The translations under genes were made by a program, and so were the position numbers. A DNA stretch of 64,000 bases from Limibacillus sp. Lineage in GTDB: Bacteria > Pseudomonadota > Alphaproteobacteria > Kiloniellales > CECT-8803. Positions within the stretch are counted from its first letter, which is position 1. Every line of letters starts with the position of its first letter. Positions 5,706-18,617 of the stretch are shown here, one piece after another. The notes beneath the pieces are model-generated. The model made no database searches, was not told where the DNA came from, and saw only the letters and a program-made list of their open reading frames with translations. Location: NCBI GenBank assembly GCA_037379885.1, contig JARRJC010000008.1, forward strand, positions 1 through 64,000. Direction: 5' to 3'.

Positions 5706-6152
5706 TCAGAAAGGAAGCGGCAGCAAACCCTCGGGCACCGAGGCGTTCAAGAGCACGTCGAACAGCAGGAAGACGGCCACGGGAAAGGCCAGGGAGACCG
5801 CCACGTTCTGAACGGTATGGCCGCGGTTGAGGACGCTGAGGCAGAGCAGCAGGAAGGCCGCCATGGCGAGCAGACCGCCCAGCAGATTCAAGGTCAGCAC
5901 CAGAAGCCCGGAAGCCACGACGATCAGCAGCACCGTGGGCCAGTGGGGCGATGCCGCCTCGCGCTCGCGCGCCAGCTTCCAGTCGGCGAAAAGGCAGAAG
6001 CAGCTAAAGGCGACCAGTGCCACGCCGATGATGCGCGGGAAGAAGCCCGGCCCCAGCCGGCCGGCGGAGGAAAGAAAGGCCAGTTCGGCAAAGGCGATGT
6101 AGCTATAGAAAAGGCTCGCGGCCAGAACCACGAGCAGGAAAGGGACCCTCAT
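5706..6152 (-). CDS. tctB: Tripartite tricarboxylate transporter small subunit TctB
   Basis: The 148-residue hydrophobic protein has four predicted membrane segments, as expected for the small permease subunit of TTT systems. The N-terminal segment is followed by the characteristic GRLGPGFFPRIIGVALV motif near residues 32-48, where the family keeps a G-P-x-x-F-P-x-x-x-G pattern. It lies between tctC and tctA in the usual CBA order. TctB pairs with TctA in the inner membrane; its exact role in coupling is not well defined. Gaps of 54 and 77 bases separate it from its neighbours, consistent with one transcript. Confidence 0.92.
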   Translation of the reverse strand: MRVPFLLVVLAASLFYSYIAFAELAFLSSAGRLGPGFFPRIIGVALVAFSCFCLFADWKLAREREAASPHWPTVLLIVVASGLLVLTLNLLGGLLAMAAFLLLCLSVLNRGHTVQNVAVSLAFPVAVFLLFDVLLNASVPEGLLPLPF

Positions 6153-9155: not shown

Positions 9156-9446
9156 TCAGTCCTGGGCGTCCTTCTCACAGGCGGTGACGGCCAAGGCGTC
9201 GGAGCGTGTGAGACCGAGGTCCCTCAGCAGATGCCCATCGATGGAGCGGAACTGTTCGCGCGCCTTGCGCTGCTCGATTCTGGTCCGGCGCCTGTCGGCG
9301 GCCTTGGCCAGCAGGCCCGCCGCAGCGCGCCACAACAAGACCAGCAGACGGCCCGCCTGGCGCACCTGCTCTCTGCTGGCGGATCCTCCCCGGCTAGGCA
9401 CGGTGAGCGCGCCGAGCGCTTGGGAACAGGATGTGTTCTGGTCCAT
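9156..9446 (-). CDS. DUF1127-domain small basic protein
   Basis: The 96-residue arginine-rich protein ends in a DUF1127 motif, REQFRSIDGHLLRDLGLTRS, at about residues 66-85. The start is set at the ATG at 9446, behind a GAGAGGGCAAGG ribosome-binding stretch; an upstream in-frame extension is unlikely because it would run through a regulatory palindrome. DUF1127 proteins are small, often stress-induced in alphaproteobacteria, and some have been linked to RNA turnover. A perfect TGTGA-N6-TCACA site lies 105 bases upstream at 9551-9566, with a TATTCA hexamer at the exact distance expected of a class II CRP promoter. It is divergent from the cyclase gene. Confidence 0.8.
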   Translation of the reverse strand: MDQNTSCSQALGALTVPSRGGSASREQVRQAGRLLVLLWRAAAGLLAKAADRRRTRIEQRKAREQFRSIDGHLLRDLGLTRSDALAVTACEKDAQD

Positions 9447-9550
9447 TGCCTTGCCCTCTCGTCTTGCGGTTCGCCCGCGACAGCCGGTTCGCGAAGAAGC
9501 GAAGCTGCCCGGTGTGGGCGCAGTGAATAGAGGCAAGTGGGTTGTTGCGC

Positions 9551-9566
9551 TGTGAAGCAGATCACA
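9551..9566. promoter_or_regulatory. CRP-type palindrome TGTGA-N6-TCACA (site 1)
   Basis: The sequence TGTGAAGCAGATCACA matches the E. coli CRP half-sites perfectly on both arms. It lies between the divergent DUF1127 gene and the cyclase gene. Reading leftward, TATTCA falls 22-27 bases past the site, which is the -10 position if the site is centred at -41.5. Reading rightward it is centred about 85 bases before the presumed start point of the cyclase promoter. Confidence 0.75.
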
Positions 9567-9631
9567 GAATCCGGGTGAAGATGAATTGCTCTCCACAGAG
9601 CTCGACTGTACTTATTTATTAGATTTCATCT

Positions 9632-9637
9632 TATAAT
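9632..9637 (+). promoter_or_regulatory. Perfect -10 hexamer for the cyclase gene
   Basis: TATAAT lies in an AT-rich patch (9611-9640), in contrast to the high-GC surroundings, and 80 bases before the chosen ATG of the cyclase gene. No strong -35 is visible at the 16-18 base spacing, which is compatible with an activator-dependent promoter. The position argues against the upstream ATG at 9649 as the translation start. Confidence 0.55.
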
Positions 9638-9717
9638 GATCTCGCGGTATGAAACGCGCGGCCTCTTTTTGGATGCCGCATTCTCCGTTGCGAGTGTTTG
9701 GTGGAGCGGGTTTTGCC

Positions 9718-12700
9718 ATGTCGGTCGAAGAGTGGCTCGCCGGGCTGGGCTTGCAGCAGTACGCCGACAGCTTTCGCGAAAACCATGTCGACGAGAGCCT
9801 GCTGAAAAGTCTGACTCTGGAGGACCTGCGCGACATCGGGGTGACCCGGGTCGGCGACCGCAGGCGCTTGCTCAACGCCATCGCCCTTTTGAATCAAAAG
9901 CGGCCCGAAGAGCCTTCCGAAGAAACCCGTGAACCCTCCGGCCCTGAGCCTGACATCGACCAGGATGCCCTGGACGACGCCGGCCGCGCGGTCGCACCCG
10001 ACGACAGCGATCTCGGCGAGCGCCGCACAGTTACGGTGCTGTTCTCCGATCTGGTCGACTCGACCGAACTCTCCACCCGGCACGACCCGGAGGAGCTCGG
10101 TGAGATCATGAAGCGCTACCGCGACGTCTGTGCTGAAACCATCGAGCGCTTCGGCGGTTATGTCGCGCGCTTCATGGGCGACGGCGTGCTGGCCTATTTC
10201 GGCTATCCGGCCGCGACCGAGAATGCCCCTGAGAGCGCCCTGCGCGCGGGGCTTGCGATCAACGAAGCGGTTCCCGCGCTCGAGATTTCAGACCTCGATC
10301 CGGAGATGACCCTGCGCACCCGCGTGGGGGTGGCGACCGGACTGGTGGTGGTCGGCGACCGAGTCGGCAAGGGGGCCGCCTCTGAGAGCGGCATCTCGGG
10401 CGAGACGCCCAATCTGGCGGCCCGCTTCCAGCAGATCGCAGCGCCCGGCCAGTTGATCTGCGGGCAGGTCACGCTGCGTCTGGCCGAAGGTCTCTTCGAG
10501 TCCGAAGAGTTGCCGCCGCAGAAGATCAAGGGCTTTGAGGACCTGATCAAGACCTACCGCATCCTTGGTGAGCGTCAGGTGGAAAGCCGCTTTGTCGCAA
10601 GGAACCACGGCGGCGCAAGGCTGATCGGACGCACCCAGGAGAAGGCCCTGCTGCACGACCGCTGGGCGACGGCCTGCGAGAACGAGGGGCAGGTGGTTCT
10701 GATCACCGGGGACCCAGGCATCGGCAAGTCGCGACTCCTGCAGGAGTTCTTGGGTGACATCGCCTCCGAGCGGCACTTCCGCATCGCCTTCCAATGTTCG
10801 CCCGCCTTCCGGGACAGCGCGCTCTATCCCGCACGCCGCCAGTTGGAGATGGCGGCGGGCTTCAGTGCGGGTGACGACGCGCAGACCAAGCGCGAGAAGC
10901 TGGGCGCAGCTCTCAGGTCGATACCGGAGACGCTACGATTCCAAGCGGACTTGGAGCTCTTTCTCGATATCCAGGAGCCGGGCGCCCAGGATCAGCCCCC
11001 GCCGGAGCAGGCCCGCGCCGCGGCGCTCTTCGCGCTCTGCGAGCGGATCATGCTGGCCTCCGAACTGCGCCCGGTGCTCTGCATTCTTGAGGACGCGCAC
11101 TGGATCGACCCCTCGACCCTCGACCTTTTCACCATGTTGCTGGAGCGGGTTCAGACGGCGGCGGTCCTGGTGGTGGTCACCTTCCGGCCGGAGTTTACCA
11201 GCCCCTGGACGCAACTGCCTTATGCGACGCTGCTGAAGCTTTCGCGTCTCAGCCGCACGCAGAGTCAGCACCTGATCGAAGCCCTGTTGGAGGGCCGCAC
11301 ACTGCCCGGCGACTCTCTCGCCAAGGTGATCGAGAAGACCGACGGCATCCCCTTCTTCATTGAAGAGGTGCTGCGTTCGCTGATCGAGAGCGGCGATCTG
11401 GAGGAGGCGGGCGGCGCGGCGCGCGCGGCGGGGTCGATCCCCGACAGCCTCAACGACACGTTGCTCTCCCGCCTGGACCGCGATCCCGACGCCAAGCGGG
11501 TCGCCCAGGTCGCCTCGGTCATTGGCCGGGAGTTTTCCGCCGGGCTGCTTTCCGACCTGACGGGCATGCCGCCCGATCTGTTGGAAAGCGCCCTGGCGAG
11601 CTTGGTCTCCTCCTCGATCATCCTGCGCAGCCACAGTCCCTCGGGTCCGAGCTACAGCTTCAAGCACGGGCTGCTGCAGGAGGCAGCTTACGCGACCCTG
11701 CTGCTGCGCAACCGGCGGCGGCTGCATCAGCGCACCGCGGAGCTTTTGCTTTCCAACAACGGAGACCTTGCGCGCTATCAACCCGAAATCATCGCGCGTC
11801 ACTACGATGAAGCCGGTATGCCGGAGCAAGCCGCCGAGGCCTGGCTTGCCGCCGGGCGCTACGCGGTCGGCCGGGGCGCCTACCGTGAAGCCCTTCAGCA
11901 TCTGAAGGACGGCCTGACGGCCGTGTCCTGCCTTCAGGACACGCCGCAGCGCCATCGTCTCGAACTGCCCCTGCAAATGTGCGTTGCGGAGACGCTGCGT
12001 TCGGCGCGCTTTACTGGCGGCGACGATGCGAAGAAGGCCTGCAAGCGGGCCCGCAGGCTCTGCGAGCTGCTGGGCGACACCGCGAACCTCATGAAGGTCT
12101 TGAGGCTGGAGTTCAGCTTGAACTTCAACCGGCCGGACATCCAGGGGGTGAAGCAGGTGACCCGCGAGTTCACGGTGCTGGCCGAGCGCACGAACGACCC
12201 CATCGCCTACCTGCTGGGCCATCAGAGCCGGGGGTGCCTGAACGTCTTCATGGGCGACTTCGAGGCGGGCGACCATGAGCTGAGATGCGCTCTCGAAGTC
12301 GCGCAGTCGATCAAGGAGGAGGGGGTGCTGCGCTCACTGCACTTCCCGACCACGGCGCTCAATTACCTGACCTTCGCCAACCTATTGATGGGCCGGGTGG
12401 AGACGGCGTCGGGCTTCTGGGAGGAGGCGTTGGAGGTCGCCGCCAAGGACGGCAAGTTCGCGCGTATCCTGGGACTCAGCAACAGCCTCATCTTCCAGCT
12501 GCTGCAACGCAACGATAAGGGCTACCGCGACCATATCAGCGAGATCAGCGCCTCTTCCGCCATTCTCGGCAGCAACTACTGGCAGCAGCTTTTGCGCCTG
12601 CATCAAGGCCTGATCCTCGCAGCCGAGGGAGACATGGATTACGCGCAGGGCCTGGTGTCGAACGCCGTGAAGGTCTTCAAGGAGAACGCCATCGAGATCG

Positions 12701-13110
12701 AGGTGCCCTTCTATCTCGGCATTCTGGCCGAACGGCTCTTGAACCGGGGCAAGGCGGACATGGCGCGGGAGATTCTGGGCGACGCCGTGATGCGCGCGGA
12801 GAAGACCGGGGAGCGCTGGTTCCTGGCGGAACTTTACCGGCTGCGCGGCCTGGCGATGCTTGAGGAGGAACCGGGCTCCGCTCTCTTCAACCTCCGCCAG
12901 GCGCTGAGCACGGCGGAGAAGCAACACGCGGCGCTGTTCCGCCTGCGGGCGGCGGCGAGCCTCTTGGAAATCAGCGAAGGTTCGACGGCCCAGCGCCAAG
13001 CCAGGCAGGCCTTGGAAGAGGCGCTGGAGTTCTTCGAAGGCGAGACGGCGCGCGCGCTTCCCGATGTCCGCATGGCCGAAGCACTGCTCTCGAAGTCGAG
13101 TGCGGCCTGA
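9718..13110 (+). CDS. SAM domain - class III nucleotidyl cyclase - AAA ATPase - TPR protein
   Basis: The 1130-residue protein has four parts. Residues 1-60 are a SAM domain (EEWLAGLGLQQYADSFREN). Residues ~100-280 are a class III cyclase domain with metal-binding Asp residues in VLFSDLVDST and FMGDGVLAYFG and the transition-state pair in GETPNLAAR. Residues ~300-600 are an AAA/NACHT-like ATPase with Walker A GDPGIGKS near residue 331 and Walker B CILEDAH near 454. The rest is TPR-like helices. The family makes cAMP (or cGMP) under control of its C-terminal sensor. Where cAMP-makers usually carry Lys two residues before the second metal motif, this protein has Arg (ARFMGDG). The start at 9718 is chosen for GGAG 12 bases upstream and domain boundary; an ATG at 9649 would lie beside the -10. 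A Crp-type regulator follows 18 bases downstream. Confidence 0.9.
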   Translation: MSVEEWLAGLGLQQYADSFRENHVDESLLKSLTLEDLRDIGVTRVGDRRRLLNAIALLNQKRPEEPSEETREPSGPEPDIDQDALDDAGRAVAPDDSDLGERRTVTVLFSDLVDSTELSTRHDPEELGEIMKRYRDVCAETIERFGGYVARFMGDGVLAYFGYPAATENAPESALRAGLAINEAVPALEISDLDPEMTLRTRVGVATGLVVVGDRVGKGAASESGISGETPNLAARFQQIAAPGQLICGQVTLRLAEGLFESEELPPQKIKGFEDLIKTYRILGERQVESRFVARNHGGARLIGRTQEKALLHDRWATACENEGQVVLITGDPGIGKSRLLQEFLGDIASERHFRIAFQCSPAFRDSALYPARRQLEMAAGFSAGDDAQTKREKLGAALRSIPETLRFQADLELFLDIQEPGAQDQPPPEQARAAALFALCERIMLASELRPVLCILEDAHWIDPSTLDLFTMLLERVQTAAVLVVVTFRPEFTSPWTQLPYATLLKLSRLSRTQSQHLIEALLEGRTLPGDSLAKVIEKTDGIPFFIEEVLRSLIESGDLEEAGGAARAAGSIPDSLNDTLLSRLDRDPDAKRVAQVASVIGREFSAGLLSDLTGMPPDLLESALASLVSSSIILRSHSPSGPSYSFKHGLLQEAAYATLLLRNRRRLHQRTAELLLSNNGDLARYQPEIIARHYDEAGMPEQAAEAWLAAGRYAVGRGAYREALQHLKDGLTAVSCLQDTPQRHRLELPLQMCVAETLRSARFTGGDDAKKACKRARRLCELLGDTANLMKVLRLEFSLNFNRPDIQGVKQVTREFTVLAERTNDPIAYLLGHQSRGCLNVFMGDFEAGDHELRCALEVAQSIKEEGVLRSLHFPTTALNYLTFANLLMGRVETASGFWEEALEVAAKDGKFARILGLSNSLIFQLLQRNDKGYRDHISEISASSAILGSNYWQQLLRLHQGLILAAEGDMDYAQGLVSNAVKVFKENAIEIEVPFYLGILAERLLNRGKADMAREILGDAVMRAEKTGERWFLAELYRLRGLAMLEEEPGSALFNLRQALSTAEKQHAALFRLRAAASLLEISEGSTAQRQARQALEEALEFFEGETARALPDVRMAEALLSKSSAA

Positions 13111-13128
13111 CATGACCCGGACTCTGCT

Positions 13129-13851
13129 ATGACCCGGACCCCGCACAGCGGCAGTGAGCGCCGGCGGCGCATGCTTGCCTCCTCCTTCGTTTTCGCCGGC
13201 ATGCCCGGGGAGCTTCTGGACGAGGTGGCGGCGGCCTGCCGCACCCGCTCCGTCGAGGCCGGGGCCTTCGTCTTTCACCTGGGCGATCCCGGCGACGCGC
13301 TCTTCGGGGTCATCTCCGGCAGCGTCAGGATCTGGATTCCCGGCACCCGGGGGCGCGAGCTGACCGTGACGCACATGGAGGAGGGCGACATTTTCGGCGA
13401 GATCGCGCTGCTCGACGGCTTGGACAGGACCGCCAACGCCAATGCCCTCACCGCGACGCAGCTCCTGGTGCTGGAGCGGCCGCTTTTCCTTGAGATCATG
13501 CGGCGCGAGCCGGACTTGAGCCTTCACGTGATCGAGTTGCTCTGCGAGAAGCTGCGAGGTGAGATCATTCGTTCCACCGAGGATATCTTCCTTGAGTTGA
13601 AGGTGCGGCTTGCCAAGCGGCTGCTCGCCCTGATGATGGGCTACGGCAAGCCGGAAGCGGGCAGCGGTGATCTGGTGCTGCGCATATCGCAGGAGGAGCT
13701 GGGCAACATGCTGGGGGTCTCGCGCGAGGCGGTGAACAAGCAGCTCAACCTCTGGGCGCGCCAGGACATCCTCTCGATCCGGCACGGCAAGATCACCCTG
13801 CACGACCAGGCCGCGCTGGAAAGCGCCGCCTCGCCGGAGGGCGACGACTAA
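13129..13851 (+). CDS. Crp/Fnr-family cyclic-nucleotide-responsive regulator (1)
   Basis: The 240-residue protein has an N-terminal cyclic-nucleotide-binding domain and a C-terminal winged helix. The phosphate-binding cassette reads GEIALLDGLDRTANANA (about residues 89-105), keeping the Glu and Arg that hold cAMP in CRP. The recognition helix region is QEELGNMLGVSREAVNKQL, so CRP's R180 and E181 are kept and R185 is replaced by Lys. No FNR-type Cys cluster is present. The gene starts 18 bases after the cyclase stop, so producer and receptor of the second messenger are probably one transcript. The start region is a 17-bp imperfect duplication (13112 and 13129), giving two nearby ATGs in different frames. 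Confidence 0.9.
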   Translation: MTRTPHSGSERRRRMLASSFVFAGMPGELLDEVAAACRTRSVEAGAFVFHLGDPGDALFGVISGSVRIWIPGTRGRELTVTHMEEGDIFGEIALLDGLDRTANANALTATQLLVLERPLFLEIMRREPDLSLHVIELLCEKLRGEIIRSTEDIFLELKVRLAKRLLALMMGYGKPEAGSGDLVLRISQEELGNMLGVSREAVNKQLNLWARQDILSIRHGKITLHDQAALESAASPEGDD

Positions 13852-14843
13852 AGGATCGCCGCGGCGCTGCGTTCCCTTGTCTGCGGCTCCATCCTTCTCC
13901 TGTCCTCTCCGGCGCAGCAGCGTCCGATGGCGTCCAGATGCCGGTGGTCGGTGCCACAGCAGCCGCCCAGGACCGTGATCTGCGGCTGAAGGGCTCGGAC
14001 CGCGCGGTAGGAGGCGCCGAGCGCCAGCGCATCCCCATCGTCGAGGGTCTTGGCATCGTCCAGCTCCGCGTGGCTGAGCGCCGAGGCATTGGCGCGCAGA
14101 CCCCTGATCCGGCGCACCCAATCCTCCTGGCATTCAATGGTGTTCCAGAAGTGCGTGGGATGGGCGCAGTTGATCATGAAGAAGGCCGGATACCCGTCCG
14201 TCCGGCGGTCAACGAAGGTGATTGCCTCCTTCAAGGTCTCGCCGGAGGGCAGGCGGCCGTCGGTCTCGACGGTGAAGGAAACCGCGACGGGAAGGCCGAG
14301 GTCCCGGGCGGCGAGGGCGATGCCGGCTGCTTCGGCGGCGTTCGTCATGGTGATGGCCGAGAGCATCTCGACGCCGGCTTCTGCGAGATGCCCGGCGAGG
14401 AAGGCGTGATAGTCGCGGGCCGCTTCGGGGGTGGTGCGTTCAGTGACCTGGTAGCCGTCGCCGCGCGGGCCCATCGCGCCGTTCAGGATCATCGGTTTCG
14501 ATGCTTGGTAGAGGGTCCGAACCTCTTCGATTAGGCGGACCGAGGCCCGGATGGCGTCGGCGAGATCGGCCTCGCCGTAGCCGAGCTTCAGGCCCCAGTC
14601 CGGACTGGCGCGCCAGGTCGCGCTGTCCAGGATAAAGCCGAGGCCGCGCTCGTTCGCGATCTTCGCGTAGCGGGCGAAATAGTCGTGAAGCGCCTGCCGG
14701 CCGCGCGCGCTGCGCAGCAGGTCGAAGGCGCAGAGCTGCGGCAGATCCAAGCCCTCGTGAAAAATCATGCTGGTCTCCAGACCGCCGTCGGTGAGGTAAA
14801 TCTCTTCATTGGAGGGGTCTTGCCAGAGGTCGTCTGCAGTCAT
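13848..14843 (-). CDS. Homocysteine S-methyltransferase family protein
   Basis: The 331-residue protein is a zinc-dependent TIM-barrel methyltransferase of the MmuM/BhmT type. It begins with the family motif LTDGGLETSMIF near residue 15. The zinc thiols are in FMINCAHP and the C-terminal GGCCGTDHRHL. Such enzymes transfer a methyl group to homocysteine from S-methylmethionine, betaine or related donors. The ATG at 14843 has GGAG 8 bases upstream; a longer frame starting with GTG at 14966 would begin inside a CRP-type palindrome and is rejected. The palindrome at 14952-14967 lies 109 bases upstream, like the other members of the local regulon. The gene ends 4 bases inside the convergent Crp gene. 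The methyl donor is unknown. Confidence 0.85.
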   Translation of the reverse strand: MTADDLWQDPSNEEIYLTDGGLETSMIFHEGLDLPQLCAFDLLRSARGRQALHDYFARYAKIANERGLGFILDSATWRASPDWGLKLGYGEADLADAIRASVRLIEEVRTLYQASKPMILNGAMGPRGDGYQVTERTTPEAARDYHAFLAGHLAEAGVEMLSAITMTNAAEAAGIALAARDLGLPVAVSFTVETDGRLPSGETLKEAITFVDRRTDGYPAFFMINCAHPTHFWNTIECQEDWVRRIRGLRANASALSHAELDDAKTLDDGDALALGASYRAVRALQPQITVLGGCCGTDHRHLDAIGRCCAGEDRRRMEPQTRERSAAAIL

Positions 14844-14951
14844 CGGGTGTCTCCATGGTGTTTCGGCGACCGGCCATGTTTGTTCGCCGGCCGAGCGGGT
14901 CTCGAATTTCTGTCGGTCCGGCAAAGCTATGCGACCGGGGAAAGGCCGGTC

Positions 14952-14967
14952 TGTGAGCCGCTTCACA
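14952..14967. promoter_or_regulatory. CRP-type palindrome TGTGA-N6-TCACA (site 2)
   Basis: The sequence TGTGAGCCGCTTCACA lies upstream of the homocysteine S-methyltransferase gene, with both half-sites perfect. A TAGCTT hexamer is at 23-28 bases past the site, within one base of the class II -10 position. It lies between two leftward genes, so it can only act on the methyltransferase. Confidence 0.7.
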
Positions 14968-15020
14968 GAGATCGCCGATGGCGGCCCCTCCCGCCTGAGG
15001 AGGAGGGGCCGCCTGGGCCG

Positions 15021-15698
15021 TCAAAGTCCGGAAGCCGCGGGGCCGCCCGGCATCTTGACCTTGCGCAGGTAGGGCAGAACGGCGTCGTAGGAACCGAAGC
15101 GCGCACGGGCATCCTCGTCGGATACGCCGGTCACGACGATCACGTCTTCGCCCGAGGTCCACTGGGCGGGGGTGGCCACTTGGTGCTCCGCCGTCAACTG
15201 GATGGAATCGATGGCGCGCAGGATCTCGTCGAAGTTACGTCCGGTGGTCATGGGATAGGTGAGGATCAGTTTGATCTTCTTGTCCGGCCCGATGACGAAG
15301 ACCGAGCGCACGGTCGCGTTGTCCGCCGCCGTGCGGCCCTCCGCGCTGTCCCCGGCGTCTGCGGGCAGCATGCCGTAGAGCTTCGCCACCGCCAGCGTCG
15401 GGTCCCCGATCAACGGGTAGTTGACGCTGTTGCCGGTCACCGCCCGGATGTCATCCTTCCACTTGTCGTGGTTCTCGACGGGGTCGACCGAAATACCGAT
15501 GATCTTGCAGTTGCGGTCGGCGAACGCGCCGGCGAGCCCCGCCATGTAACCGAGTTCAGTGGTGCAGACGGGGGTGAAGTCCTTGGGGTGGCTGAAAAGC
15601 ACGGCGTAGCCGCGCCCGATCCAGTCATGGAAACGGATGGTTCCCGCCGTGGTCTCGGCGGTGAAATCCGGCGCCGTGTCGTTTATGCGAAGTGTCAT
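15021..15698 (-). CDS. 1-Cys (Prx6-type) peroxiredoxin
   Basis: The 225-residue protein is a peroxiredoxin of the Prx6 class. The peroxidatic Cys is C45 in PKDFTPVCTTELGYMAG, with the conserved Pro and Thr of the active site. The length and the long C-terminal domain (YDAVLPYLRKVKMPGG) match Prx6 rather than AhpC. It reduces hydrogen peroxide and organic hydroperoxides in the cytoplasm, using an external thiol reductant. The gene starts 109 bases from a CRP-type palindrome (15807-15822) and is divergent from fetAB-like iron-export genes, which suggests a shared oxidative-stress response. Confidence 0.95.
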   Translation of the reverse strand: MTLRINDTAPDFTAETTAGTIRFHDWIGRGYAVLFSHPKDFTPVCTTELGYMAGLAGAFADRNCKIIGISVDPVENHDKWKDDIRAVTGNSVNYPLIGDPTLAVAKLYGMLPADAGDSAEGRTAADNATVRSVFVIGPDKKIKLILTYPMTTGRNFDEILRAIDSIQLTAEHQVATPAQWTSGEDVIVVTGVSDEDARARFGSYDAVLPYLRKVKMPGGPAASGL

Positions 15699-15806
15699 GG
15701 TGTCGCTTCCTTCTCAAGGTCGGGTCTCCCGGCCGGGCTGCTCGGCCCGGCCGCCCTCTCGCGTTTCGAGAGGCCGCAGAGAGAGCACAAGCGGCTCAGC
15801 CTTGTG

Positions 15807-15822
15807 TGTGAAGCAGTTCACA
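15807..15822. promoter_or_regulatory. CRP-type palindrome TGTGA-N6-TCACA (site 3)
   Basis: The sequence TGTGAAGCAGTTCACA lies in the divergent promoter of the peroxiredoxin gene and the FetA-type ATPase gene. It differs from site 1 at one base of the spacer only (AGCAGT against AGCAGA). Neither direction shows a clear -10 at the class II distance, so which gene it controls is open. Confidence 0.7.
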
Positions 15823-15919
15823 GAGGGGCGGGCCGCGGCATCACGAGTTCGTGAGGGCTGCGGGGAGGTCTCCCAAGTTCTCTCTTGCCATTGCCGGGGC
15901 TTGGGCGCACCAAGGATAC

Positions 15920-16510
15920 ATGCTGTCCCTGCAAGGTCTGACCACAAGAAACCTGAAGCCCGTCAGCCTCGAGGTGGCGGATGGCGAGTGCGTCTCCGTC
16001 CAGGGGCCCTCGGGAAGCGGCAAGAGCCTTCTGCTGAGGGCCATCGCCGACCTCGACCTCAATGAAGGGCAGGCCTTCCTCGATGGCCGGGAGCGCGCCT
16101 CCATGCCCGCGCCGGAATGGCGGCGACAGGTGGTCTATCTGGCGACGGACGCCGGCTGGTGGGCTTCCGGCGTGGAGGAGCACTTCAGCGACTGGGCCGC
16201 GATAGAAGACGGCGTGGCGGCGCTCGGCCTCGATCCGGAATGCCGCCGCTGGCCGGTCAGCCGCCTTTCGACCGGGGAGCGCCAGCGTCTGGCCCTGCTG
16301 CGCGCCCTGGCCCTCTCACCGCGGGTCCTGCTGCTGGACGAGCCGACCTCCGCCCTGGACGAGAAGGCGACGGCGGCGGTCGAAGCCCTGGTCGCCCGCT
16401 ATCGCGACTCGGGCCTTTCCACGATCTGGGTATCGCACAGCCGCGAGCAGGCGCGGCGTGTCTCTCAGCGCTCCTATGAGCTCAGCCAGGGCGGTGTGGT
16501 GGCGCTATGA
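15920..16510 (+). CDS. fetA: FetA-type ABC transporter ATP-binding protein
   Basis: The 196-residue ATPase is short for an ABC protein, as usual for FetA/YbbL. Walker A is GPSGSGKS near residue 34, the signature is LSTGERQRLALLRAL near 118 and Walker B is VLLLDEPTSALDE near 138. The ATG at 15920 is preferred because AAGGA lies 6 bases upstream; an earlier start at 15851 gives an unrelated extension. In E. coli FetAB exports iron and raises peroxide resistance. The stop overlaps the start of the permease gene by 4 bases (ATGA). A CRP-type palindrome lies 98 bases upstream. Confidence 0.85.
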   Translation: MLSLQGLTTRNLKPVSLEVADGECVSVQGPSGSGKSLLLRAIADLDLNEGQAFLDGRERASMPAPEWRRQVVYLATDAGWWASGVEEHFSDWAAIEDGVAALGLDPECRRWPVSRLSTGERQRLALLRALALSPRVLLLDEPTSALDEKATAAVEALVARYRDSGLSTIWVSHSREQARRVSQRSYELSQGGVVAL

Positions 16511-17304
16511 CCGGCTATATCGAACTCCATATCCTCGATCTGGTGCTCGCGAGCCTGCTGATTCTGATCAACGGCGGCCTGTCCCTGTGGCTGCGTTTGA
16601 AGCTGGAGCGCTCCTTGGCGCTGGCAACTTTGCGGATGATCGTGCAGCTGACGGCCATCGGCTTCGTGCTGAAGGCGCTGTTCCTCACGGTTTCCCCCTG
16701 GCTGACCGGCGGGGCCGCGCTGGCCATGATCCTCTTTGCGGGCCGCGAGATCGCCGCGCGCCAGGAACGCAAGATGGTGGGCTGGTGGTCCTATGGCCTG
16801 GGCGTCAGTTGCATGGCCATGGCGGCCTTCGTGGTCACGATCTTCGCCCTCACCACGCAGCTTCAGGCCGACCCCTGGTACCATCCGCGCTTCGCGCTGC
16901 CGATCCTGGGCATGGTGCTTGGCAACACCATGACCTCCATTTCGCTGGGACTGGACCGCCTGACCTCCTCGGCGGGGCGCGAGCGCGCGGCCATCGAGGC
17001 GCAACTGGCCCTGGGCGCGACGCGGCAGGAGGCCATGCGCCCCTTCACGCGCGCGGCGCTCCGCTCCGCGTTGATGCCCACCATCAACGCCATGGCCGCG
17101 ACGGGGCTTGTCTCCCTGCCGGGCATGATGACGGGCCAGATCCTCTCCGGCGTCGATCCGGTGGAGGCGACCAAGTATCAGATCCTGATCATGTTCCTGA
17201 TTGCGGGCGGCACCGGGCTGGGCGCGGTGACGGCGGTCATGGCCGGGATGATGCGCCTGACCGACGAGCGGCACCGGCTGCGCCTGGACCGCCTGGAGGA
17301 TTAG
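16507..17304 (+). CDS. fetB: FetB-type ABC transporter permease
   Basis: The 265-residue membrane protein has about seven predicted helices and belongs to the FetB/YbbM (UPF0014) family. The conserved segment ERAAIEAQLALGATRQEAMR near residue 158 is followed by MPTINAMAATGLVSLPGMMT, the family hallmark. With FetA it forms an iron (or other metal) exporter in the inner membrane. It starts inside the fetA stop codon, showing translational coupling. A strong hairpin at 17326-17351 ends the transcript. Confidence 0.9.
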   Translation: MTGYIELHILDLVLASLLILINGGLSLWLRLKLERSLALATLRMIVQLTAIGFVLKALFLTVSPWLTGGAALAMILFAGREIAARQERKMVGWWSYGLGVSCMAMAAFVVTIFALTTQLQADPWYHPRFALPILGMVLGNTMTSISLGLDRLTSSAGRERAAIEAQLALGATRQEAMRPFTRAALRSALMPTINAMAATGLVSLPGMMTGQILSGVDPVEATKYQILIMFLIAGGTGLGAVTAVMAGMMRLTDERHRLRLDRLED

Positions 17305-17325
17305 GTTCCTCTCAAAGAAGAAAAA

Positions 17326-17351
17326 AGGGGGCGCCTGGAAGGGCGCCCCCT
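17326..17351. terminator. Rho-independent terminator, probably bidirectional
   Basis: A 10-bp GC-rich stem (AGGGGGCGCC paired with GGCGCCCCCT, loop TGGAAG) is flanked by an A-rich stretch on the left and CTTTGTTTG on the right. It separates fetB from the convergent DUF1127 gene and can serve both. Confidence 0.85.
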
Positions 17352-17379
17352 CTTTGTTTGCGACTTGGCTCCGGTTGGC

Positions 17380-17628
17380 TTAGGGGAGGTCCAAGCAACC
17401 CAGGCCGATGTCGCGCCTCGTGTGGCTGCTGATCCGGGGCAGATGGTCCCGGGCCAGTTGTTTTCTGCGTCTTTCCCGTTCTGCGTCGAGGAGACCGTTG
17501 AAGCCGTCCCTCACGGTGAAGATCGCTGACTTCAGGCGCTCAACGCTGTCCAGACCCGAGAGGGAGCCTCCGAAGAAGTCGGGGGTCCAGCCTTGTGCGC
17601 TTGCTTGGCTGTTGGGGGCTCTATTCAC
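17380..17628 (-). CDS. DUF1127-like small protein
   Basis: The 82-residue protein ends in a DUF1127-like segment, RDHLPRISSHTRRDIGLGCL, with the conserved R-x2-x-I-S-x-H-x-R-R-D-I-G-L core. The upstream half is not conserved. A GTG at 17628 behind GGAGAG is the likely start. It lies downstream of a 26-residue basic peptide gene on the same strand, and both appear to be read from a promoter with a perfect CRP-type palindrome at 17843-17858. It is the second DUF1127 gene in this island linked to such a site. Confidence 0.75.
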   Translation of the reverse strand: MNRAPNSQASAQGWTPDFFGGSLSGLDSVERLKSAIFTVRDGFNGLLDAERERRRKQLARDHLPRISSHTRRDIGLGCLDLP

Positions 17629-17682
17629 TTGATCTCTCCGTTCCTTGAGGTTGATCGCCTGATGCTTCAGGCCGGGTTCCGG

Positions 17683-17763
17683 TTAGCGTTTGAACAGTCG
17701 CGCGATGAAACTTGCTAGACCGCGTTTCTGCCGGGGGGAGGCAAAACCAATCTGCGTAACCAT
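17683..17763 (-). CDS. Small basic peptide, 26 residues
   Basis: A short reading frame starts with ATG at 17763, preceded by AGGAG at an ideal 6-base distance. It ends with TAA at 17683. The peptide begins MVTQIGFASPRQ and ends in a basic amphipathic stretch KRGLASFIARLFKR. No family is recognised. It sits between the CRP-type palindrome (80 bases upstream, with TATCTT at the class II -10 position) and the DUF1127 gene, so it is probably the first gene of that transcript. A second in-frame ATG at 17769 lies too close to the ribosome site. It may be a functional peptide or a leader that affects the downstream gene. Confidence 0.55.
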   Translation of the reverse strand: MVTQIGFASPRQKRGLASFIARLFKR

Positions 17764-17842
17764 CTTCATCTCCTGTCTTGGCTTGGGGGTTCCGGCCCCG
17801 TTTCCTGATGATTTGAAGATAGGCATTGCCGGTAAAGACTTC

Positions 17843-17858
17843 TGTGACGGCAATCACA
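17843..17858. promoter_or_regulatory. CRP-type palindrome TGTGA-N6-TCACA (site 4)
   Basis: The sequence TGTGACGGCAATCACA lies between the second Crp-type gene (start 17916) and the leftward peptide/DUF1127 unit. Leftward, TATCTT occupies bases 22-27 past the site, exactly the class II -10 position. Rightward, TATTTT lies 17-22 bases past the site. The layout suggests autoregulation of the Crp-type gene together with control of the peptide unit. Confidence 0.75.
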
Positions 17859-17915: not shown

Positions 17916-18617
17916 ATGGTGCTGGGAACCGAGGAGATCTTCGACAATCTGCCGAAGGCCTCGCTGCTGAAGAGCCTGCCGCGTGAAGAGGCCGAGGCCC
18001 TGCTGGCGCTTGGCGTGAAGCGCCGTTACGAGCCCCAGGAGCTGGTCGTCTATCAGGGCGATTCGGGCAGCAGCATGATGGTGGTGCTGAGGGGCCGCCT
18101 GCGCGCGAGCCTTTTCGCGGACAGCGGCAAGGAGATTCTCCTCGCCTATATCCAAGCGGGCGACGTGGTGGGGGAGATGGCCGTTCTCGACGGCGGCCCG
18201 CGCTCCGCCTCGGTCACGGCGGAGGAGCCAAGCGACCTTCTGGTGATCGAACGCTCGAAGCTGACCCCCTTTCTCGCCCAGCATGGCGAGGTCGGGCTCT
18301 CGCTGATCGTCAATCTTTGCCGGCGCATGCGCAATGCGACGGAGATGCTGTCGGAGCACAGCAACCTCGGGGTGCCCCAGCGTCTGGCCCGCTCCATCCT
18401 GCGGCTCGCCGTGGAGATGAGCCCGCAGGGCAGTGAGATGCGGCTGCGCGAACTGAAGATCCGCCAGGCGGATCTGGGCAGCTACACCGGTCTGGCGCGT
18501 GAGAACGTCAATCGCCAGCTTCGCGAATGGGTCGAAGCCGGGCTGATCGAACTGGGCCGAGGGCGTCTGGTGATCAAGGACAGCAAGGCGTTGCAGCAGA
18601 TAGCCGACAGCCTCTGA
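17916..18617 (+). CDS. Crp/Fnr-family cyclic-nucleotide-responsive regulator (2)
   Basis: The 233-residue protein has a cyclic-nucleotide-binding domain with cassette GEMAVLDGGPRSASVTA (about residues 87-103), keeping the Glu, Arg and Ser that contact cAMP in CRP. The helix-turn-helix reads LGSYTGLARENVNRQL, aligning with CRP's SRETVGR so that the DNA-contact residues R180, E181 and R185 are all conserved. This fits recognition of TGTGA half-sites. No FNR Cys cluster is present. A good ribosome site (GGGAGAGGGC) precedes the ATG, and a perfect TGTGA-N6-TCACA site lies 58 bases upstream. Of the two Crp-type proteins, this one is the better candidate to bind the four sites. Confidence 0.92.
   Translation: MVLGTEEIFDNLPKASLLKSLPREEAEALLALGVKRRYEPQELVVYQGDSGSSMMVVLRGRLRASLFADSGKEILLAYIQAGDVVGEMAVLDGGPRSASVTAEEPSDLLVIERSKLTPFLAQHGEVGLSLIVNLCRRMRNATEMLSEHSNLGVPQRLARSILRLAVEMSPQGSEMRLRELKIRQADLGSYTGLARENVNRQLREWVEAGLIELGRGRLVIKDSKALQQIADSL

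Follow-up and report, generated by a model that had tools for sequence, protein, structure and literature searches.

The stretch of DNA analyzed here, referred to below as the window, comprises 64,000 nucleotides of a contig from Limibacillus sp. and carries an island in which genes for a nucleotide cyclase, two Crp-type regulators and their neighbors are interspersed with four putative Crp operators. The genes and elements of the island are as follows (positions in the window).

9156..9446, minus strand: dufA, 96-aa small protein, DUF1127-like but below threshold
9524..9529, minus strand: putative -10 TATTCA toward dufA, 22 nt past operator 1
9551..9566, no strand: putative Crp operator 1, TGTGAAGCAGATCACA, between the divergent dufA and cyclase genes
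9718..13110, plus strand: class III nucleotide cyclase (Pfam SAM, Guanylate_cyc and AAA_16, then a long C-terminal region)
13129..13851, plus strand: crp1, recognition helix SREAVNK (Pfam cNMP_binding and HTH_Crp_2)
13848..14843, minus strand: HMT, homocysteine S-methyltransferase family (Pfam)
14924..14929, minus strand: putative -10 TAGCTT toward HMT, 23 nt past operator 2
14952..14967, no strand: putative Crp operator 2, TGTGAGCCGCTTCACA, upstream of HMT
15021..15698, minus strand: peroxiredoxin (Prx), 1-Cys-type (Pfam AhpC-TSA and 1-cysPrx_C)
15807..15822, no strand: putative Crp operator 3, TGTGAAGCAGTTCACA, between Prx and fetA
15920..16510, plus strand: fetA-like ABC transporter ATPase (Pfam)
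16507..17304, plus strand: fetB-like permease, UPF0014 (Pfam)
17380..17628, minus strand: dufB, 82-aa small protein, DUF1127-like but below threshold
17683..17769, minus strand: 28-codon ORF, MKMVTQIGFASPRQKRGLASFIARLFKR, between operator 4 and dufB
17816..17821, minus strand: putative -10 TATCTT toward the peptide ORF and dufB, 22 nt past operator 4
17843..17858, no strand: putative Crp operator 4, TGTGACGGCAATCACA, 65.5 bp (center to start) upstream of crp2
17916..18617, plus strand: crp2, recognition helix ARENVNR (Pfam cNMP_binding and HTH_Crp_2)

The cyclase has a further in-frame ATG at 9649 and, as given in a preliminary description of this DNA, is followed after 18 bases by a Crp-type gene, crp1, in the same direction (13110 to 13129). 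The fetA-like ATPase adjoins the UPF0014 permease, as in FetAB pairs, with iron export as the predicted role. The two small proteins had been introduced as DUF1127 genes; at 13.8 to 13.9 bits against PF06568, under the Pfam cutoff of 23.3, they are DUF1127-like at most. A link among cyclase, Crp and DUF1127 in Alphaproteobacteria was not found reported in the literature.

A scan of the window for TGTGA-N6-TCACA recovered exact palindromes at 9551, 14952, 15807 and 17843 and no further match at zero or one mismatch, while shuffles gave 0.86 matches at up to one mismatch. This agrees with the preliminary description, which had all four sites in intergenic regions and none elsewhere in the window and had proposed a genome-wide scan to see whether such sites concentrate here. 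They do: the 3.107-Mb genome holds six perfect sites, the four of the island plus C6:44177 and C117:1067, against zero perfect matches to the reversed control pattern in the whole genome, and the chance of four out of six falling within 8.3 kb is about 1e-6. The refuting condition given in that description, an equal frequency of sites in other intergenic regions, therefore does not apply. All six are intergenic; operator 2 would overlap the HMT frame only if GTG at 14966 were used as start instead of ATG at 14843. Allowing up to one mismatch gave 17 sites genome-wide versus 7 for the reversed control, and about half of the single-mismatch sites examined (n = 9) were intragenic. Since their frequency was near that of the control and they often lay within genes, these extra sites are mostly due to chance and were dropped as targets.

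Distances from the site center to the start codon were 112.5 bp for dufA, 116.5 bp for both HMT and Prx and 105.5 bp for fetA, with comparable arrangements outside the island at C6 (108.5 bp) and C117 (about 106 bp); they were 81.5 bp for the 28-codon peptide ORF and 65.5 bp for crp2. The center of operator 1 is 90.5 or 159.5 bp from the cyclase start, depending on the start used, and the position of this operator between dufA and the cyclase means that it may serve either gene.

In class II CRP promoters of Escherichia coli, the site lies at -41.5 and the -10 element about 30 bp from the site center. The flanks of 43 perfect sites showed a TA step strongly concentrated 22 to 23 bases past the palindrome, in 23 of 56 flanks once near-duplicates were dropped (3.6 expected); for flanks from the genome itself, the count was 4 of 12 (0.36 expected). 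A TA at this place puts the beginning of the -10 hexamer 29.5 to 30.5 bp from the site center, which is the class II arrangement. Within the island, this spacing occurs toward dufA, HMT and the peptide ORF with dufB, while a class II -10 is absent from the flanks toward Prx, fetA, the cyclase and crp2; operator 3 (Prx/FetAB) is the only island site that lacks it on both sides. A generic sigma-70 scan detected no promoter at the sites. Judged by sequence, HMT would be the best-placed metabolic target. On the cyclase-side flank, a TATAAT (9632-9637) is found 73.5 bp from the center of operator 1, so this operator, if it acts on the cyclase, would work in another way than class II; repression or class I activation may apply at the cyclase flank, and autorepression may apply to crp2.

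The two perfect sites outside the island differ in context. C117:1067 lies upstream of a small ORF, and C6:44177 (L001) is combined with a class II -10 (TATAAG) before a gene for an alpha/beta hydrolase, which is, as far as sequence can indicate, the strongest target candidate beyond the island. The regulon had been called self-contained, which holds for four of the six perfect sites but not for these two, one of them at a class II distance from a promoter element. The peroxide and iron circuit proposed at the same time had been drawn from proximity; operator 3 is without a class II -10, and the fetched Prx homologue loci of the order (about 99 kb in total) contained no perfect site. On the latter result, a site-bearing promoter conserved at Prx was rejected, and the putative peroxide, iron and methionine role is less well founded than originally described.

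The cyclase contains a Guanylate_cyc domain with both metal-binding Asp and the catalytic Asn and Arg residues expected of class III. Base selection in this class relies on Lys with Asp/Thr in adenylate cyclases and Glu with Cys/Ser in guanylate cyclases. The island enzyme has R/G, which is neither of the known pairs, so that its sequence cannot tell a cAMP from a cGMP product. A second cyclase, 35% identical, is present elsewhere in the genome (C14). Of the 27 closest homologues of the cyclase in the order, 1 has a Crp gene next to it, which means that the pairing is not a general unit, and the idea that cyclase and Crp are conserved as a pair was dropped. At L236:752-4842, in a different family of this order, a cyclase of 33% identity is immediately followed by the gene for a distant Crp, past which lies a perfect operator.

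Both crp1 and crp2 score well over the cutoffs for cNMP_binding and HTH_Crp_2. Aligned with E. coli CRP, the phosphate-binding pocket (G71, E72, R82, S/T83) reads G, E, R, T in crp1 and G, E, R, S in crp2, and R180 and E181 are kept in both, with K at position 185 in crp1 and R in crp2, confirming the R180, E181 and R185 previously noted for the latter. The positions of T127 and S128 are E/I in crp1 and A/T in crp2. Use of cAMP or cGMP by the two proteins is predicted, with the E/I of crp1 counting against it. No other full-length Crp/Fnr paralogue found in the genome keeps R180 and E181; the two that were detected besides crp1 and crp2, C90 and C46, are missing these residues and were rejected as readers of the sites. 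The closest solved structure to both is PDB 7pza, a cAMP-binding catabolite activator protein that we take to be Clr of Sinorhizobium meliloti. A scan of named genomes with crp2 returned distant Crps alone, none of them exceeding 36% identity across most of the protein.

The analysis also covered 70 neighborhoods of crp1/crp2 homologues (1.23 Mb) picked independently of the sites. They contained 31 perfect sites against 1.07 expected from a background rate of 382 perfect sites in 438.6 Mb from 118 genomes, with a Poisson p of about 1e-34 that is overstated, as related loci are not independent. The operator-bearing neighborhoods come from many families, and in several other families a cyclase-domain gene lies within 10 kb of an operator-bearing Crp homologue. 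The TGTGA-N6-TCACA motif is linked to the crp1/crp2 type of regulator across Alphaproteobacteria, and the original side-by-side view of the island is supported, for producer, receptors and operators, by the recurrence of this linkage beside their relatives. Another local multi-operator cluster was seen at L135. Two identical perfect operators, TGTGACGCCGTTCACA, at 5726 and 6444 (a distance of 718 bp) precede small proteins there, and the Crp gene is preceded by a one-mismatch site.

In kind, the design has a precedent: CgrA of Rhodospirillum centenum, a cGMP-dependent Crp footprinted on TGTGA-N6-TCACA, which activates both genes that diverge from one operator and has a genome-wide ChIP regulon of 295 peaks (PMC4681086). 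We took the CgrA sequence from L187, which we take to be R. centenum from the gene order around the published operator. In the tree, crp1, crp2 and CgrA fall in one 65-row clade (support 97/97), with E. coli CRP and FNR outside. Operator 3 is letter-identical to the footprinted CgrA site, and both loci have the same motif, an operator separating a small divergent gene from the operon that holds the Crp gene, and a class III cyclase domain nearby. The R. centenum operator has a TA at +23 on both flanks, that is, class II -10 spacing in both directions; as CgrA activates both divergent genes, the spacing rule agrees with experiment at this one locus. The recognition helix of CgrA, SREIVNK, carries K at 185 like crp1 and unlike crp2, and since CgrA binds the motif, K is compatible with the operator. 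R185 thus gives crp2 no advantage over crp1 as the reader.

The differences are also considerable. CgrA groups with L189, L120, L125 and others (95/92), apart from both island proteins, and neither of these is its orthologue; the YcaO/TfuA genes (gcyB, gcyC) of L187 are absent among the island genes searched; the island has two Crps instead of one; and its perfect sites are mostly local, in contrast to the genome-wide CgrA regulon. As neither Crp is orthologous to CgrA, YcaO/TfuA are missing and the cyclase stands in another setting, the island is not the CgrA system by descent. Clr of S. meliloti, a cluster G Crp, binds HGTYHCNNNNGRWACA and is without E181 (PMC10127613). Like crp1 and crp2, to which it would be the nearest solved structure, Clr is an alphaproteobacterial cyclic-nucleotide Crp, but the island proteins keep E181 and adjoin TGTGA-N6-TCACA. 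With E. coli CRP, the island shares the identical 16-bp consensus, R180 and E181, and a -10 some 30 bp away from the center of the site, although the tree places that protein apart from the alphaproteobacterial clade and it commands a global regulon in place of local clustering.

Some features of the CgrA-type loci deserve mention in their own right. In the cyclases near CgrA-type Crps of L108, L120, L125, L167, L168, L187 and L189, the catalytic Asn is replaced by H and, in some of them, the catalytic Arg by K, two residues that the island cyclase keeps. The published guanylyl cyclase subunits gcyB and gcyC (L187:9376-11678) match Pfam YcaO (E 2.8e-89) and TfuA (E 7.1e-47), and a 54-aa ORF, RC1_3785, lies upstream of them; by their sequences, the three look like a cluster for a ribosomally made, modified peptide rather than cyclase subunits. 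At L112, L120, L125, L162, L167, L168, L169, L170 and L189, several loci have a Crp operator that faces a small protein of repetitive sequence (LVRGADGxLYxID..., repeats of the type DYDAGRMAIEA), a YcaO-like gene close to the Crp gene, or both, which suggests that CgrA-type Crps may control peptide biosynthesis clusters.

Taken together, we consider that the island is probably a local, CgrA-type regulon driven by a cyclic nucleotide, with different target genes. The cyclase would produce cAMP or cGMP for crp1, which is predicted to be cotranscribed with it, and for crp2; once loaded with nucleotide, both Crps would occupy the operators near their own genes. The dimer bound at three of these operators would be centered at about -41.5 and drive class II activation of the leftward genes dufA, HMT and peptide/dufB. 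Feedback within the circuit is also probable, as operator 1 precedes the cyclase-crp1 operon and operator 4 precedes crp2. In this scheme, operator binding, the identity of the ligand, the direction of the feedback and control of Prx/FetAB are presumed.

A different division of labor is possible though not likely, in which just one of the Crps reads the operators, the other having come to use a different ligand or target, and only one is supplied by the neighboring cyclase. The two proteins are 29% identical and sit in separate subclades (98/88 for crp1, 89/81 for crp2), their recognition helices and C-helix ligand positions differ as described, and operator 4 upstream of crp2 or operator 1 upstream of cyclase-crp1 could each be simple autoregulation; against this, homologues with K185 (L126, L129 and L136) and with R185 (L110) alike have a perfect or one-mismatch operator directly upstream of their own gene. 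We regard as unlikely that both Crps read the operators with nucleotide from another cyclase, or work without nucleotide, which would suit the noncanonical base-selecting residues of the neighboring enzyme, the presence of the C14 cyclase and the fact that most homologues of the island cyclase stand alone. The 18-bp gap in one direction between cyclase and crp1, the intact metal and Asn/Arg catalytic residues and the recurrence of cyclase-domain genes near operator-bearing Crps in other families speak for the local source. That the palindromes are chance occurrences or remnants without current function is highly improbable: the Prx/FetAB operator is off the class II spacing and not conserved at the other Prx genes of the order, but the clustering, the empty reversed control, the uniform start-codon distances, the -10 spacing and the class-wide linkage all argue against it.

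Crp acting at TGTGA-N6-TCACA is known from textbooks as the global regulator. In this genome, perfect operators are largely restricted to the neighborhood of the regulator, and the recurrence of this local linkage across Alphaproteobacteria suggests that the textbook circuit also occurs as a compact local switch. Tentatively, and with some doubt, Alphaproteobacteria might hold many private cyclic-nucleotide regulons, in which paralogous Crps of the same clade each retain operators close to the E. coli consensus, chiefly at class II promoters next to the respective crp gene. The present island would then house two Crps that act through a common set of operators and might sense different nucleotides, or different concentrations, at the promoters they share. 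An operator with a TA at +22/23 beside a Crp of this CgrA-containing clade provides a sequence rule for target prediction in many unstudied genomes.
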